In this document: positions 349 through 53,478 of the stretch, in pieces
Layout: each line of letters starts with the position of its first letter
Numbering within the stretch: the first letter of the stretch is position 1
Assembly: GCA_027532775.1 (NCBI GenBank)
Contig: JAPZTO010000001.1
Coordinates: forward strand, 248,001-312,000
DNA: 64,000 nt
Direction of reading: 5' to 3'
Origin: Beijerinckiaceae bacterium
GTDB lineage: Bacteria; Pseudomonadota; Alphaproteobacteria; Rhizobiales; Beijerinckiaceae
Program-made: the position numbers and the translations under genes
The notes under the pieces: generated by a model
Databases searched by the model: none
The model's input: the letters and a program-made list of their open reading frames with translations, nothing else
Told to the model about the DNA's origin: nothing

Positions 349-828
349 ATGACCGATCGCCAGCCTGTCACACCCGCCCGTATCTGGTTCCGGTTTCTCC
401 GCCTGCACCAGCGCGGCCATGGCGCCATTGCCCAGCGCCTGCGCCAGCTGGGTCTCTCGGTCGCCCAGTTCGACCTTCTCTCTACGCTGACGGAAGCCGA
501 GGGCATCACCCAGCGTGATCTCGCCGAGCGCCTCTACGTCACCAAGGGCAATGTGTCGGGCCTGGTCGACCGGCTGGTCGAGGCGGGCATGGTCGATCGC
601 CGGGCCATCCCGGGCGACCGCCGTTCGTACGCGCTGCACCTGACCGAAGCCGGCCGCAAGGCCGCACAGGCCGGGATGGAGACGCAGCAGCTCTTCGTCA
701 ACGAGACGGTGGGGAAACTGTCGCCGCGCGATCTCGAAATGCTCGACCAGGTGATCACCCGGTGGCGCGACACATTCCGGGCGCTCGAGCAATCCGGGCC
801 CGATGGCCAGGGCAACGCGCAGGGCTGA
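349..828 (+). CDS. MarR-family transcriptional regulator
   Basis: A 159-residue protein with the MarR layout: an N-terminal dimerisation helix region, then a winged helix-turn-helix at about residues 45-110. The segment ITQRDLAERLYVTKGNVSGL is the helix-turn-helix, followed by a basic wing (RRAIPGDRRSY) and the usual LTEAGRK. MarR proteins bind palindromic operators as dimers and usually release DNA on binding a small phenolic or other ligand. It diverges from the DUF898 gene with about 170 bp between them, so control of that gene or of itself is plausible. The target and ligand cannot be read from the sequence. Confidence 0.9.
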   Translation: MTDRQPVTPARIWFRFLRLHQRGHGAIAQRLRQLGLSVAQFDLLSTLTEAEGITQRDLAERLYVTKGNVSGLVDRLVEAGMVDRRAIPGDRRSYALHLTEAGRKAAQAGMETQQLFVNETVGKLSPRDLEMLDQVITRWRDTFRALEQSGPDGQGNAQG

Positions 829-6541: not shown

Positions 6542-6633
6542 TTCATGACGAAAGACAACAACAGAAACGGATTGCCCACATTGCGCGGAGCATAAAGACA
6601 GGAACCGTTCCGACCCCCGCCTTGCTGCAATGT

Positions 6634-33678: not shown

Positions 33679-35466
33679 CTATTCGGCGGCGCTGGCAAAG
33701 GCCGAGGTGATGGATTCGGCCCCTTCGACGACGGTCGTCTCGAGGCCCTCGGCGCCGACGGCAAGGTTTTCGGCGAAGAAGCGGGCATCGCGGATGCGCG
33801 ATTCATGGCGAGGATCCGTCTCGCCGGCATGGCGGGCGGCCGCGGCAGCCATGGCCTCGTCAGCGAGATAGGCCCCGCCAGCCGCAAGCGCGAAGAGACG
33901 GAGATAGGGAGTCGCGCCGGCCAAAGCCGCATTCGGATTGCCCTTCAGCGCTCCGAGCATGAAGCCCGTGGCGCGCTCCAGCGCATCGACGGCACGGCCG
34001 ATCCGCGTGCCGATGGCATTGAGCGCGGGGTCGTTGAAGCCGCGCGCGCGCTCGGCCGAGGCGCGGTAGCCGGCAATCATCGCGGCAATGCGTTGCCCGT
34101 CCGAAAGCGGCAGCTTGCGGGTCACAAGGTCGATGGCCTGGATGCCGTTCGTCCCCTCGTAGATCGCGAGGATGCGGGCATCGCGGTAATGCTGGGCGGC
34201 GCCGGTTTCCTCGACGAAGCCCATACCGCCATGGATCTGGACGCCGAGCGAGGCGACTTCGATCCCGATATCGGTCGCGAAAGCCTTGGCCACCGGGGTG
34301 AGCATCGAGGCTTCTTCATGTGCAATGCGGCGGGCTTCCTCGTCCTCCAGGCGGTGATGGCGGTCGAGGCCCGCCGCCGTGGCAAAACACAGGGCGCGGG
34401 CAGCGGCGATCTTGGCGCGCATCTCCATCAGCATGCGCTTGATATCCGGATGCTCGATGATCGGCGAGGCCGCCGGCGCCCCGACGGCGCGGCCCTGCTT
34501 GCGGTCGCGGGCATAGGACAGGGCCTGCTGGTAGGCGCGGTCGGCAATGGCGACACCCTGTACGCCGACGCCGAGGCGGGCATTGTTCATCATCGTGAAC
34601 ATGCAGGCGAGGCCCTTGTTCTCTTCGCCGATGAGGTAGCCGATGGCCCCGCCGGCATCGCCGAAGATCATCGTGGCCGTTGGCGAGGCATGAATGCCGA
34701 GCTTGTGCTCGAGCGCGTGGCAGCGCAGGTCGTTCCGGGCGCCGAGGCTGCCATCCGGGTTGACGAGGAATTTCGGCACGAGGAACAGCGAGATGCCGCG
34801 CGTACCCGCCGGCGCATCCGGCAGGCGGGCCAGAACGAGATGGATGATGTTCTCCGTCATCTCGTGATCGCCATAGGTGATGAAGATCTTCTGCCCGAAG
34901 ATCCGGTAGCTCCCATCGGCCGCCCGTTCCGCGCGGCTGGTCAACAGGTTGAGATCCGAGCCGGCCTGCGGCTCGGTCAGGTTCATCGTGCCGGTCCATT
35001 CGCCGGCAATGAGCTTGGGCAGGTAGGTCTGCTTGAGGTGATCCGTGCCATGCGCGGTGAGGGCCTCGACCGCGCCGACCGTCAGCAGCGGGTTCAGTGC
35101 GAAGGCCATGTTGGCGGCATTCCAGATCTCGCTGCAGGCGACGCTGAGCAGAGTCGGCAGGCCCTGCCCGCCATATTCGGGATCTGCCGCCAGGCTGGCC
35201 CAGCCACCCGCCGCCCAATCGGCATAGGCCTCGGCAAAGCCGGCCGGCATGCGGACGGTGCCATCGACCAGACGGGCCATTTCCTTGTCGCCAACGCGGT
35301 TGAGCGGCGCAAGCCGGCCCTCGGCGAATTTCGCGGCTTCGTCGAGGATCGCCTCGGCAACGCCATCGGCCAGATCGGCATAGAGGCCGGAGGCAATGCC
35401 CTGCTCCAGCCCGGCGACGTGGCGCATGGCGAACAGGATATCCTCGACTGGCGCGCGATAAGTCAT
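33679..35466 (-). CDS. Acyl-CoA dehydrogenase, long form
   Basis: A 595-residue FAD enzyme of the long acyl-CoA dehydrogenase group (DmdC-like rather than the 380-residue short form). Visible are TMNLTEPQAGSDL, KIFITYGDHE, GVQIHGGMGFVEE and the substrate-site region ILAIYEGTNGIQAIDL. It passes electrons to ETF, and ETF to ETF:QO, whose gene (50762-52438) has nearly the same upstream 18-mer. The chain-length range is unknown. First gene of a three-gene operon. Confidence 0.94.
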   Translation of the reverse strand: MTYRAPVEDILFAMRHVAGLEQGIASGLYADLADGVAEAILDEAAKFAEGRLAPLNRVGDKEMARLVDGTVRMPAGFAEAYADWAAGGWASLAADPEYGGQGLPTLLSVACSEIWNAANMAFALNPLLTVGAVEALTAHGTDHLKQTYLPKLIAGEWTGTMNLTEPQAGSDLNLLTSRAERAADGSYRIFGQKIFITYGDHEMTENIIHLVLARLPDAPAGTRGISLFLVPKFLVNPDGSLGARNDLRCHALEHKLGIHASPTATMIFGDAGGAIGYLIGEENKGLACMFTMMNNARLGVGVQGVAIADRAYQQALSYARDRKQGRAVGAPAASPIIEHPDIKRMLMEMRAKIAAARALCFATAAGLDRHHRLEDEEARRIAHEEASMLTPVAKAFATDIGIEVASLGVQIHGGMGFVEETGAAQHYRDARILAIYEGTNGIQAIDLVTRKLPLSDGQRIAAMIAGYRASAERARGFNDPALNAIGTRIGRAVDALERATGFMLGALKGNPNAALAGATPYLRLFALAAGGAYLADEAMAAAAARHAGETDPRHESRIRDARFFAENLAVGAEGLETTVVEGAESITSAFASAAE

Positions 35467-35563: not shown

Positions 35564-35581
35564 TAGTTCATATATAAACTA
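35564..35581. promoter_or_regulatory. Operator candidate upstream of the acyl-CoA dehydrogenase operon
   Basis: TAGTTCATATATAAACTA, an imperfect palindrome (7 of 9 positions) about 98 bp upstream of the dehydrogenase start. It differs at one base from the sequence before ETF:QO at 52490-52507, in the same orientation relative to the downstream gene. The size and symmetry suit a TetR-type dimer; the regulator is not identified. Confidence 0.65.
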
Positions 35582-35712
35582 TCTGGTTTCGAACCGGATG
35601 GCAAGGGCTTCCTGCCACCGTGCCCGCCATAGTCTGTCAGGGCCAGCCACGCAGTCAGGTGGCCGACAAAGAGATGTTGCAGACCTGAGGCAATTTGCCC
35701 CAAAGATGTCCT

Positions 35713-36738
35713 ATGCATTCGCCAACCGCGACGACACTCGTCCTGACCGACCGGCCGGAAGATCTGGCCCGAGCGGGGGCCATGCTCGCCGGGGGCGAGC
35801 TCGTCGCCTTCCCGACCGAGACCGTCTACGGGCTCGGCGCGGATGCAACGAACCCGCAGGCCATCGCCCGGCTCTATGCTGCCAAGGGCCGCCCGCGCTT
35901 CAACCCGCTGATTGCCCATGTCGCCAGCCTCGATCAGGCCCTCGCGCTGGGCGATTTCCCGCCGGAAGCGCAGGTTCTGGCGAAGGCCTTCTGGCCAGGC
36001 CCGCTGACTCTTGTCGTGCCTGCCCGTGCCGGGGGGCCGGTCTGCGAGCTGGCCCGGGCCGGGCTCGATTCGGTCGCGATCCGTGTCCCGGACCACCCGG
36101 TGGCGCAAGCCATTCTCATGGCGGCTGACCGGCCGGTCGCCGCGCCGAGCGCGAACCGCTCGGGCCATGTCTCGGCCAGTGATGCCCGCCATGTCGAGGA
36201 AGACCTTGCCGGCCGAATCGCCGCCATTGTCGATGGCGGGGCCACGCCAATCGGCGTCGAATCAACAATTGTCGGTTGCCTCGGCGGCGTGATCACGCTT
36301 CTCCGCCCGGGCGGCATCCCGCGCGAGGCGATCGAGGCGAAGCTCGGCCGGCCGCTCGAGGCGGCCTCGGCTGATACCAGCCAGCCGCTCGCTCCGGGGC
36401 GGCTGAGTTCCCATTACGCGCCCCGGCACGGTGTGCGACTTAACGCCACAGTTCTGCAGCCGGGCGAGGCCTATCTCGGATTCGGAACCGCCGAACCGGG
36501 CGGTGCCGAGCCCGTGGCCGCGCTGAACCTGTCGCGGTCGGGCGATCTCGCCGAGGCGGCATCGCGCCTTTATGGCTGCCTTCGCGCGCTGGATTCGCTG
36601 TCCAGCACCGGAATCGCGGTGGCACCGTTACCGGACACCGGGTTGGGCGAGGCGATTCAGGACAGGTTGTTGCGCGCGGCGGCGCCCCGGGAGGGCGCCC
36701 ATTCCGACGCCTCGGACACCCTTGCCAAAGGTCGATAA
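35713..36738 (+). CDS. L-threonylcarbamoyladenylate synthase (Sua5/YrdC)
   Basis: A 341-residue long-form Sua5: an N-terminal YrdC domain (about 15-205) with FPTETVYGLGADA, KGRPRFNPL, PSANRSGH and VESTIV, plus the C-terminal Sua5 domain beginning at SSHYAPRH. It makes threonylcarbamoyl-AMP for the t6A modification of tRNA position 37. The ATG at 35713 is chosen over an upstream TTG. It is divergent from the acyl-CoA dehydrogenase operon. Confidence 0.95.
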   Translation: MHSPTATTLVLTDRPEDLARAGAMLAGGELVAFPTETVYGLGADATNPQAIARLYAAKGRPRFNPLIAHVASLDQALALGDFPPEAQVLAKAFWPGPLTLVVPARAGGPVCELARAGLDSVAIRVPDHPVAQAILMAADRPVAAPSANRSGHVSASDARHVEEDLAGRIAAIVDGGATPIGVESTIVGCLGGVITLLRPGGIPREAIEAKLGRPLEAASADTSQPLAPGRLSSHYAPRHGVRLNATVLQPGEAYLGFGTAEPGGAEPVAALNLSRSGDLAEAASRLYGCLRALDSLSSTGIAVAPLPDTGLGEAIQDRLLRAAAPREGAHSDASDTLAKGR

Positions 36739-36792: not shown

Positions 36793-37722
36793 ATGCAGCC
36801 ACTCGCCTGGGATGATTTCCGCCTCGTCCGCGCCATTGCCGACCACCGCTCCCTCGGTGGTGCGGCGGAAGCCCTCGGCGTCAACAATTCGACGGTGTTC
36901 CGGCGGCTGAATGCGCTCGAGGAGCATCTCGGCGTGCGGATCTTCGAGCGCGCCCGTTCCGGCTATTTGCTGACTTCGGCGGGCGAGGAGATGGTGGCGC
37001 TGGCAAGCCGGATGGCCGAATCGATCCTCGAATTCGAGCGCCGGATTGCCGGGCAGGATGTCCGCCCCTCGGGGGAGCTTCGCGTGACGACGACGGATAC
37101 GATCTTCTCGCATCTCGTCTCGCCGATCTTCTGCGCTTTCCGCCAGCGTTACCCCGAGATCACGCTCGATTTCGTGATCGACAACCGGGCGCTGAACCTT
37201 TCGCGCCGCGATGCGGACGTGGCCATCCGCGCCTCGGTCGATCCCCCGCCTTCACTTGTCGGGCGCCGCGTCGCCACGATCGGCTGGGGTTGCTATGCCG
37301 GCCGGGCCTTCGTTGCCGAGCAGAAGACGGATCTTGCCCAGCCCGAGAGCCTGCTGCGCAAGCCGGCCCGTTGGGTCGGCCTCGGCGACCCGATCAGCAT
37401 GACGGCGGGCGGACGCTGGATTTCCGGGCAGGTGCCACCCGAATGCGTGGTGGTGAAAGTCAACATGGTCTCGACGCTGGCCAGCGCGGCACAGGCTGGC
37501 CTTGGCATGACGACCCTGCCCTGCTTCATCGGTGACCAGTTGCCCGATCTCGTGCGGATCCATTCGCTCCGCATTTCCTCGGATACCGGCCTGTGGGTGC
37601 TGACCCATCCCGACCTTAAGAAGGCCGCGCGGGTGCGGGCCTTCCTCGAGTTCTTCGGTGCGGAGCTGACGAAGCGCCGCCGCCTGATCGAAGGCGACGA
37701 CATCGCCAACCCGCCGGCCTAG
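36793..37722 (+). CDS. LysR-family transcriptional regulator
   Basis: A 309-residue LysR protein: helix-turn-helix at about 17-50 (SLGGAAEALGVNNSTVFRRL), then the co-inducer-binding domain from about 90. The missing stretch between helix and effector domain is normal. It converges on the MFS gene across 14 bp, so it may regulate that carrier, but LysR targets are more often divergent. The co-inducer is unknown. Confidence 0.93.
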   Translation: MQPLAWDDFRLVRAIADHRSLGGAAEALGVNNSTVFRRLNALEEHLGVRIFERARSGYLLTSAGEEMVALASRMAESILEFERRIAGQDVRPSGELRVTTTDTIFSHLVSPIFCAFRQRYPEITLDFVIDNRALNLSRRDADVAIRASVDPPPSLVGRRVATIGWGCYAGRAFVAEQKTDLAQPESLLRKPARWVGLGDPISMTAGGRWISGQVPPECVVVKVNMVSTLASAAQAGLGMTTLPCFIGDQLPDLVRIHSLRISSDTGLWVLTHPDLKKAARVRAFLEFFGAELTKRRRLIEGDDIANPPA

Positions 37723-50761: not shown

Positions 50762-52438
50762 TCACATGTTCGGATAGGTCGGCCCGCCGCCGCCTTCCGG
50801 CGCGATCCAGTTGATGTTCTGTGACGGATCCTTGATGTCGCAGGTCTTGCAGTGGACGCAGTTCTGCGCGTTGATCACGAAGCGCGGATCGGTCTTCGCG
50901 GCCTCGTCGCCATAGACGACCTCATACACGCCGGCCGGGCAATAAAGCCGCGCCGGCTCGCCATAGACCGGCAGGTTCCGCGCGATCGGCACGGAAGCAT
51001 CCTTCAGCGTCAGATGGATCGGCTGGTCTTCCTCGTGGTTCGTACCGGACAGGAATACCGAGGACAGCTTGTCGAACGAGATCACGCCATCGGGCTTGGG
51101 ATAGGCGATCGGCTTGACCTCGGCGAGCGGCTTCAGCGAGGCGGCGTCGGTCTTGCCGTGCTTCAGCGTGCCGAAGGGCGAGAACCCCAACAACTCGTTG
51201 CACCACATGTCGAGAGCGCCGAGCGGCACGCCGATCCAGGTGCCGAATTTCGACCAGAGCGGCTTCACATTGCGGACCTTCTTCAGGTCCTTGCCGATCT
51301 CGCTTGATCGCCAGGCCTGCTCGTAGGCGAGAAGCTCGTCGCCGGCGCGGCCATCCGCCAGCGCCTCGACAATCGTATCCGCCGCGAGCATGCCCGAGAG
51401 CATCGCATTGTGGCTGCCCTTGATGCGCGGCACATTGACGAAACCGGCCGAGCAGCCGAGCAGCGCGCCGCCGGGGAAGCAGAGTTTCGGCACGCTCTGC
51501 CAGCCGCCCTCGGTGATGGCGCGGGCGCCATAGGAGAGGCGCTTGCCGCCTTCCAGCATCTCGCGGATCATCGGGTGCTGCTTGAAACGCTGGAACTCGT
51601 CGAAGGGCGAGAGCGTCGGATTCTGGTAGTTCAGATGGACGACGAAGCCGATCGAGACGAGATTGTCGTCGAAATGGTAGAGGAACGAGCCGCCGCCGGT
51701 CTTCGAATCGAGCGGCCAGCCGAAGGAATGCTGCACGAGGCCCGGCTGGTGCTTCGCCGGGTCGATCTGCCAGAGTTCCTTGAGGCCGATGCCGAATTTC
51801 GGCACGTCGCGGCCCTCGTCGAGGCCGAACCGGGCAATGAGCTGCTTCGAGAGATGGCCCCGCACGCCTTCCGCGAAGAGCGTGTACTTGCCCATCAACG
51901 CCATGCCGCGGGTGAAGCCATCCTTCATCTCGCCGGACCGGGCAATGCCCATATCGCCCGTGGCGATGCCGGTCACGGCGCCGGCATCGTTGTAGAGCAC
52001 TTCCTGCGCCGCGAAGCCGGGATAGATCTCGACGCCCAGCGCCTCGGCCTTCGTGGCGAGCCAGCGGCAGAGATTGCCCAGCGAGATGACGTAATTGCCA
52101 TGGTTGTCGAGCAGTTTCGGCATGGCAATGTTCGGCAGCCGGATGCCCCCGGCCGGGCCGAGGAAATAGAAGCGGTCATCCACAACCGGCGTTTTCACCG
52201 GGCATTCGGGATCATCGCGCCAGTCCGGGATCAGCTTGTCCAGACCGACAGGATCGATCACCGCACCGGAGAGGATATGCGCACCGACCTCGGAGCCCTT
52301 CTCGACGAGGACAACCGAAATCTCCTCGCCCCGTTCGGCAGCGGCCTGTTTCAGCCGGATCGCCGCGGAGAGCCCGGCGGGGCCGCCACCGACGATGACG
52401 ACATCATATTCCATCGCGTCGCGTTCCGGCAGTTCCAT
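50762..52438 (-). CDS. Electron-transfer flavoprotein:ubiquinone oxidoreductase
   Basis: A 558-residue ETF:QO, which moves electrons from ETF (fed by acyl-CoA dehydrogenases) to ubiquinone in the inner membrane. It has the FAD fold VVIVGGGPAGLSAAIRL, a second flavin block GAHILSGAV, and the C-terminal [4Fe-4S] motif NCVHCKTCDIKDP followed by INWIAPEGGGGP. GAGGG precedes the ATG. Its upstream 18-mer matches that of the acyl-CoA dehydrogenase operon. Confidence 0.97.
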   Translation of the reverse strand: MELPERDAMEYDVVIVGGGPAGLSAAIRLKQAAAERGEEISVVLVEKGSEVGAHILSGAVIDPVGLDKLIPDWRDDPECPVKTPVVDDRFYFLGPAGGIRLPNIAMPKLLDNHGNYVISLGNLCRWLATKAEALGVEIYPGFAAQEVLYNDAGAVTGIATGDMGIARSGEMKDGFTRGMALMGKYTLFAEGVRGHLSKQLIARFGLDEGRDVPKFGIGLKELWQIDPAKHQPGLVQHSFGWPLDSKTGGGSFLYHFDDNLVSIGFVVHLNYQNPTLSPFDEFQRFKQHPMIREMLEGGKRLSYGARAITEGGWQSVPKLCFPGGALLGCSAGFVNVPRIKGSHNAMLSGMLAADTIVEALADGRAGDELLAYEQAWRSSEIGKDLKKVRNVKPLWSKFGTWIGVPLGALDMWCNELLGFSPFGTLKHGKTDAASLKPLAEVKPIAYPKPDGVISFDKLSSVFLSGTNHEEDQPIHLTLKDASVPIARNLPVYGEPARLYCPAGVYEVVYGDEAAKTDPRFVINAQNCVHCKTCDIKDPSQNINWIAPEGGGGPTYPNM

Positions 52439-52489: not shown

Positions 52490-52507
52490 TAGTTCATATG
52501 TAAACTA
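52490..52507. promoter_or_regulatory. Operator candidate upstream of ETF:QO
   Basis: TAGTTCATATGTAAACTA, 17 of 18 bases identical to 35564-35581. It lies about 52 bp upstream of the ETF:QO ATG in the intergenic region shared with the divergent uracil-DNA glycosylase gene. The local AT-richness also suggests a promoter. Confidence 0.65.
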
Positions 52508-52665
52508 AATTCAAGGACCGGCTTGTCGCCTTGCCCTCCGGTGGGTAGTTTCAGGTTCGGGAACGACCTCCCGAACCCGGCAAGGTGCCGGAGGGCGCCT
52601 CTTTCTGGCGTCGGGATGGCCGAATTGCAAGCTGGAAGCATCAGGGAAAGGACCGCGCCTTGGCG

Positions 52666-53478
52666 ATGACCGAACCGCAATCGCCGCGCCGGATCCTCGA
52701 GTTCCTGGTTGCCGCCGGGGTGGACATGATCGTCGGCGACGAGCCGGTCAACCGGCTCCAACCGCCGCCTCCCCTGCCGGAACGTCAGGCCGAGGCAAGT
52801 CCGGGCCGGGCGGCCCCAGCGGCCCCAACACCGGCACAGGCGCCCGCTGCCCTGCGGGCGGCCCCGCCTGCGCCGGATGATGCGATCATGCAGGCCCGCC
52901 TGCAGGCCCGCTCGGCGGCAAGCCTCGAGGAACTGGCCACGATCATGGCGGCTTTCGACGGCTGCGCGCTCAAGGCGACAGCCTCGCGCCTCGTCTTCGC
53001 GGACGGCAATCCGCAGGCGCGCGTGATGATCATCGGCGAGGCGCCGGGCCGCGAGGAGGACGAGACCGGGAAACCTTTCGTGGGGCGCGCCGGGCAATTG
53101 CTCGACAAGATGCTGAAGGCGATCGGCCTCGACCGGAGCGGTGTCTATATCGCCAATGTCGTGCCGTGGCGGCCGCCGGGCAACCGCACGCCGACCCCGC
53201 AGGAAGTGGCGATCTGCCTGCCCTTCATCCACCGCCAGATCGAGCTGGCCGCGCCGGATATCCTGCTGACCATGGGCGCTCCGGCGACACAGAACCTCAC
53301 CGGCCGCAAGGACGGCATCCTGCGGCTGCGCGGCCAATGGTTCGAGGTCGATATCGCGGAGCGGAAGATTCCGACGCTGGCGACCCTGCATCCGGCCTAT
53401 CTGCTGCGGCAGCCGGGCCAGAAGGCACTGGCCTGGCGCGACCTCCGGGCGCTCAAGGCGCGGCTTGCGGCGGAGTGA
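52666..53478 (+). CDS. Uracil-DNA glycosylase, family 4-like
   Basis: A 270-residue glycosylase. Motif A-like GEAPGREEDETGKPFVGRAG and the HPAYLLRQPGQK motif fit family 4. Residues ~20-95 are Pro/Ala-rich and disordered. The four Cys that bind the [4Fe-4S] cluster in classical members are not all present: only DGCALK and AICLPF remain, and KCRPPGNR is PWRPPGNR. A TTG 6 nt earlier has better ribosome-binding spacing and may be the true start. It excises uracil from DNA. Confidence 0.9.
   Translation: MTEPQSPRRILEFLVAAGVDMIVGDEPVNRLQPPPPLPERQAEASPGRAAPAAPTPAQAPAALRAAPPAPDDAIMQARLQARSAASLEELATIMAAFDGCALKATASRLVFADGNPQARVMIIGEAPGREEDETGKPFVGRAGQLLDKMLKAIGLDRSGVYIANVVPWRPPGNRTPTPQEVAICLPFIHRQIELAAPDILLTMGAPATQNLTGRKDGILRLRGQWFEVDIAERKIPTLATLHPAYLLRQPGQKALAWRDLRALKARLAAE

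Follow-up and report, generated by a model that had tools for sequence, protein, structure and literature searches.

Two nearly identical 18-bp sites stand before the genes of an acyl-CoA dehydrogenase and an ETF:ubiquinone oxidoreductase (ETF:QO), raising the question of whether both are operators of one regulon and, if so, which protein reads them. The window, meaning the whole 64-kb stretch of DNA that was analyzed, is G000:C15:248001-312000 of the 3.80-Mb source genome (G000). A sequence-only reading of it had attributed the pair to a shared TetR-type fatty-acid regulator.

The two window sites and their copies in the source genome

The sites TAGTTCATATATAAACTA and TAGTTCATATGTAAACTA are one base apart, in line with the near-identity first claimed, and their description as AT-rich intergenic dyads in a GC-rich genome was borne out (G+C of 17% in the first site, 35564-35581, and 66% in the window; both sites intergenic). 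Pfam confirmed the earlier identification of the two gene products (Table 1); NCBIfam models match the acyl-CoA dehydrogenase only below their curated cut-offs. At three mismatches or fewer, TAGTTYAYATRTRAACTA matches exactly twice in the window and not at all in 100 dinucleotide shuffles of it, and the two sites are real, non-chance features. They lie 97 bp (acyl-CoA dehydrogenase) and 51 bp (ETF:QO) from the start codons, in intergenic regions shared with the divergent genes for TsaC and uracil-DNA glycosylase, both of which are probably bystanders. The ETF:QO is 96% identical in two Beijerinckiaceae MAGs (L158 and L159), its nearest named relatives. Even-length palindromes are not expected of LysR sites, and because the present site is one, the LysR gene beside tsaC (36793-37722) is unlikely to encode its reader.

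Table 1 Features of the window and core sites of the source genome
Feature	Position in window	Strand	Evidence or context
159-aa MarR-family protein, proposed site regulator	349..828	+	Pfam MarR_2 (PF12802) 4e-19
595-aa acyl-CoA dehydrogenase, target	33679..35466	-	Pfam acyl-CoA dehydrogenase domains, PF00441 5.5e-30
Near-palindromic 18-bp predicted operator TAGTTCATATATAAACTA	35564..35581	none	between acyl-CoA dehydrogenase (minus) and tsaC (plus)
TsaC/L-threonylcarbamoyladenylate synthase, divergent neighbour	35695..36738	+	TIGR00057 8e-49
558-aa ETF:ubiquinone oxidoreductase, target	50762..52438	-	Pfam Fer4_ETF_QO 2e-47, ETFQO_UQ-bd 4e-44
Near-palindromic 18-bp predicted operator TAGTTCATATGTAAACTA	52490..52507	none	between ETF:QO (minus) and uracil-DNA glycosylase (plus)
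Family 4 uracil-DNA glycosylase, divergent neighbour	52585..53478	+	TIGR00758 6.5e-62
Core site 1 of 6			before acyl-CoA dehydrogenase 33679-35466
Core site 2 of 6			before ETF:QO 50762-52438
Core site 3 of 6			before etfB-etfA (etfBA); hydroxyacyl-CoA dehydrogenase downstream
Core site 4 of 6			before operon acyl-CoA dehydrogenase (fadE)-thiolase-FadJ-thioesterase
Core site 5 of 6			before AMP-binding protein (putative acyl-CoA ligase)
Core site 6 of 6			before DUF2147 gene

Scanning the whole genome with the pattern at three mismatches or fewer gave eight distinct places (four exact, one with one mismatch, one with two and two with three), against one match for the backwards pattern. The core GTTYRYRYRYRAAC occurs in exactly six of these eight places and nowhere else in the genome (three matches for the backwards core). 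Five of the six core sites stand at beta-oxidation and electron-path genes; the two three-mismatch places (L013 and L014) were left out of the count of regulon members. With sites at etfBA, at a further acyl-CoA dehydrogenase operon and at an AMP-binding gene, the first two of which had been predicted, the proposal of a shared fatty-acid regulon is strongly supported. On sequence grounds, the standing of the two window sites as predicted operators of a beta-oxidation regulon is secure. The claim that the sites face their genes in the same orientation holds for the window pair and fails for the etfBA copy, which is reversed relative to its gene; orientation says little because the 18-bp site is nearly palindromic.

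The sixth core site, an exact copy, lies just upstream of the DUF2147 gene L009:7918-8363 (C5). Another DUF2147 gene, in L048 (G037), has a one-mismatch site just upstream that also serves an acyl-CoA dehydrogenase. Linked to the site in two genera, the DUF2147 gene may belong to the regulon, and the analysis places this unstudied gene beside it.

One of the places left out adjoins a further MarR gene of the source genome (L014:4805-5315, C13; 152 aa), which stands beside a divergent TctC receptor gene. About 35 bp upstream of it is TAATTGACATATCAACTA, with three mismatches to the present site and a self-complementary change at positions 6/13; perhaps this is an operator of a sister type that belongs to the L014 MarR protein itself.

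Conservation of the site in the family and the order

Among 60 Beijerinckiaceae genomes, the source genome included, 31 carry the site at one mismatch or fewer, and the backwards control gave none. We retrieved 60 site-containing loci from relatives and assigned their targets by tblastn against references from the same set. The site stands at an acyl-CoA dehydrogenase in 36 loci and at ETF:QO in 14 (together 50/60), and genes of acyl-CoA metabolism account for 53/60 once single cases at etfB, at a ccr-like/mutase pair (L086) and at an AMP-binding ligase are included. One further site adjoins tsaC alone, and six loci are without assignment. Relatives L045, L052, L068, L073, L092 and L097 keep the arrangement of acyl-CoA dehydrogenase, site and tsaC. 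The arms GTT...AAC do not vary among 66 sites, partly by construction, as 65 of the 66 were selected at one mismatch or fewer. Most sites of the relatives lie 17-150 bp before start codons, as extrapolated from tblastn. Of 297 genomes drawn from across the order, four have the exact pattern; all four are Beijerinckiaceae, of which 12 were drawn, and the backwards control gave one match, in G153.

Several individual sites depart from the common setting. Three of the six loci without assignment (L047, L051 and L055, from three genomes) have sites flanked by members of clusters c18 and c19 and not adjacent to a beta-oxidation gene; c18 is peptidase-like by eye, and the c19 member of L055 is a methylmalonyl-CoA mutase by Pfam. 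Also without assignment are the site of L089, which precedes a nitronate-monooxygenase-type gene, and that of L081, which precedes a 164-aa protein that matches no Pfam model. The last of the six, the exact site at L066:4035-4052 (G014), has no adjoining fatty-acid gene, and etf-type genes begin 2.5 kb on, at 6622. By eye, the intervening genes appear mobile, which would suit an insertion that separated the site from its target.

At L086:4000-4017 (G056), a one-mismatch site is flanked by two divergent genes, one for a crotonyl-CoA-reductase-like dehydrogenase and the other for a methylmalonyl-CoA-mutase-family protein (ccr and ecm, as named by eye). This placement suggests that the regulon extends to the ethylmalonyl-CoA pathway in that genome.

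The candidate regulator

Candidate regulators were narrowed with a site-bearing genome of 2.3 Mb (G039). Above the Pfam cut-offs, the source genome yields 14 matches to TetR and 23 to MarR_2, some of the latter belonging by eye to other winged-helix families such as ArsR and Lrp. G039 has two TetR matches, one of them 41% similar to a TetR protein of the source genome encoded between zapE and mdh (G000:C13:259442-260038) and likewise adjoining mdh; this is the only TetR clearly common to both genomes. It also has a homologue, at 55%, of the MarR protein encoded at 349-828 in the window, which scores 68.9 bits against PF12802 (Pfam cut-off 27). Other MarR proteins common to the two genomes, all described by eye, are an ilvE neighbour, one of 116 aa and one that is LdtR-like.

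The distributions of this one MarR and this one TetR were profiled over the 60 family genomes. With orthologues called at E <= 4e-40 (next match 2.8e-21), the MarR is present in 29/31 genomes with the site and 5/29 without it (Fisher p=1.1e-9), and by genus in 23/25 and 2/18 (p=7.6e-8). The genus g20 contains both states, as G019 has the MarR and the site and G059 has neither. Exceptions occur in both directions: G043 (98% complete) and G023 (92%) carry the site without a clear MarR orthologue, none having emerged on inspection of their diverged MarR proteins (L345-L347), and G001, G012, G016, G046 and G053 have the MarR without a site at one mismatch or fewer. On a tree of the 30 genomes whose TetR loci were fetched, built from ZapE, TetR and Mdh with several gappy rows, the MarR changes five times and the site seven. 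Five independent pairs differ in the MarR; among these, the average number with a concordant difference in the site is 4.6 and with a discordant one 0.0. The resulting p of 0.0625 is the floor for five pairs, which are too few to reach 0.05. In the draw from the order, the MarR was found in 11/297 genomes, all of them Beijerinckiaceae (11 of the 12 drawn), with a best match outside the family of 2.6e-21 and 39% identity; 12 first-look candidates were scored per genome, making absences less certain than in the 60-genome search.

The zapE-mdh TetR gave a different picture. Its orthologues (E 7e-26 or better) occur in 26/31 genomes with the site and 19/29 without it (p=0.14), and the site-bearing genomes without a strong orthologue include the one-contig G036. 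Nor does any of the 14 TetR loci of the source genome, searched over about 1.5 kb on each side, have anything closer than five mismatches; the site predicted before a TetR gene was not found there. TetR proteins do control fatty-acid degradation elsewhere, PsrA and FadP among them (PMC5343134). The site of L086, in one relative, would suit a relative of Methylobacterium CcrR, whose mutant in M. extorquens is described as having its Ccr activity halved (PMC4207312). The TetR type first proposed is nonetheless not supported, and that a TetR fatty-acid regulator, be it the zapE-mdh protein or a CcrR relative, reads the sites is decidedly improbable.

Autoregulation through an own operator is common among MarR proteins. 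Within 250 bp upstream of the MarR genes (loci were available for 30 of the 34 orthologues), degenerate sites at four mismatches or fewer precede 8/30, with 2, 2, 3, 3, 4, 4, 4 and 4 mismatches, and the best copy before each of the other 22 has at least seven. Among 100 shuffles of these regions the mean was 0.1 and the maximum 1 of 30. Six further orthologues (L333-L338) added a three-mismatch site in L336, giving 9/36 in total. No such site precedes the MarR of the source genome or those of two congeners (G026 and G339), where the best copy has eight mismatches. Upstream of 30 orthologues of the zapE-mdh TetR, the count at four mismatches or fewer was 0/30 (29 without a site at six or fewer, one with six). 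This is a rather weak control: the TetR gene overlaps zapE in the source genome and may, for that reason, have no promoter of its own.

Gene neighbourhoods were also surveyed. An AMP-binding, ligase-type gene adjoins the MarR in 13/36 loci, and in L305 the MarR gene is followed by one of patatin type. Around the sites themselves, a DNA-level search of the 60 relative loci for TetR and MarR genes found none clearly similar to those of the source genome; two of its four matches lie in an antisense frame of L133, and the other two are ArsR-like.

Cluster c10, of MerR type by eye, has seven members near fadE, spread over 6 of the 60 relative loci. In L050, L061, L079 and L103 no other called gene stands between c10 and the fadE site downstream of it, and in L053 and L085 c10 is one called ORF further away. 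That c10 binds the site is nevertheless extremely unlikely, as the source genome has six core sites and no c10 orthologue, its sole c10 match being a different MerR (E 1.9e-6, 37% over 75 residues). The c10 protein may instead read the TTTACGT-type box TTTACGTNNACGTAAA discussed below.

Because only two candidates were profiled over the 60 genomes, and genomes with the MarR but not the site occur as well as the reverse, the reader might belong to another family and have been gained and lost together with the MarR. We regard this as improbable, since it leaves the degenerate sites before 8/30 MarR genes unexplained. Taken on the distribution and upstream evidence, the MarR protein 349-828 is the likely regulator of the sites.

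A model for the regulon and its relation to known systems

MarR proteins are typically dimeric repressors that recognize palindromes, and several sense CoA or ACP thioesters. By this model, a dimer of MarR 349-828 would bind the 18-bp palindrome TAGTTYAYRTRTRAACTA at the promoters of the acyl-CoA dehydrogenase, ETF:QO, etfBA, fadE-thiolase-fadJ and the acyl-CoA ligase and repress them. Binding of an acyl-CoA or fatty-acid ligand would release the protein, and dehydrogenases, electron carrier and quinone reductase would be switched on together. The spacing of 17-150 bp before start codons fits a repressor. Promoter scans at both window sites found no consensus promoter, so repression is putative and activation is possible.

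The ETF:QO promoters of other Hyphomicrobiales were compared as well. In 79 named loci (80 less the incomplete L211), the present site occurs at two mismatches or fewer in 12, and a second box, TTTACGTNNACGTAAA, which we take to be LiuR-like, occurs at three mismatches or fewer in 31 (within L174-L235; reversed-pattern control 2). Carriers of the second box include Sinorhizobium, Shinella, Stappia and Roseibium. Neither box was found in 36 promoters. The near relative Camelimonas lactis is one of those in which ETF:QO lacks the present site (best copy five mismatches). Both boxes together were found in 0/79. This mutual exclusivity suggests a regulator swap, as far as promoter sequences can tell; two readings of the pattern remain, replacement of one regulator by the other or independent recruitment of ETF:QO in each lineage. 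Our tentative proposal, to which we give slightly less than an even chance, is that in the Beijerinckiaceae the MarR displaced a MerR-type acyl-CoA sensor and took over the entire route that leads from acyl-CoA to ubiquinone, together with ethylmalonyl-/methylmalonyl-CoA genes in some relatives. If true, this would be a clean replacement of one regulator by a non-orthologous one, with the promoters rewired to match.

The analysis offers the Beijerinckiaceae a candidate regulator, an operator that can be read by eye, a list of targets and a testable account of regulator exchange, and it suggests that ETF and ETF:QO are regulated jointly with the dehydrogenases for which they work. Literature listings and the beginnings of abstracts yielded no account of the control of fatty-acid breakdown, nor of a MarR regulator of beta-oxidation, in this family; the literal core sequence had one match in the literature, a PCR primer.

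Among solved structures, the chain closest to MarR 349-828 is 3boq (7.5e-18), labelled a MarR-family regulator. FabT (6jbx, as we take that entry to be) and CouR (6c28) belong to the MarR family too and are presumably acyl-thioester-sensing proteins; their similarity to MarR 349-828 is weak (E 5e-5 and 9e-6, respectively). Methylobacterium extorquens, which we assume to fall in the same GTDB family as the source genome, has in CcrR a TetR regulator whose target, ccr, likewise belongs to an acyl-CoA pathway. CcrR differs in being described as a TetR-family activator of an ethylmalonyl-CoA pathway gene.

The operator sites of FadR, PsrA and FadP are palindromes. Like the system proposed here, the regulons of FadR (GntR), PsrA and FadP (TetR) place several fatty-acid-degradation operons under one regulator, and of the classes studied only the betaproteobacteria have FadP (PMC5343134). 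The present candidate differs in belonging to the MarR family and in being confined, among the genomes drawn, to one alphaproteobacterial family. LiuR, given as a MerR-type regulator for the use of branched-chain amino acids (PMC5343134), shares with it the control of acyl-CoA catabolism, in the case of LiuR that of branched-chain amino acids. The two regulons differ in box and spacing, and the present site and the LiuR-like box never stand together at ETF:QO (0/79).
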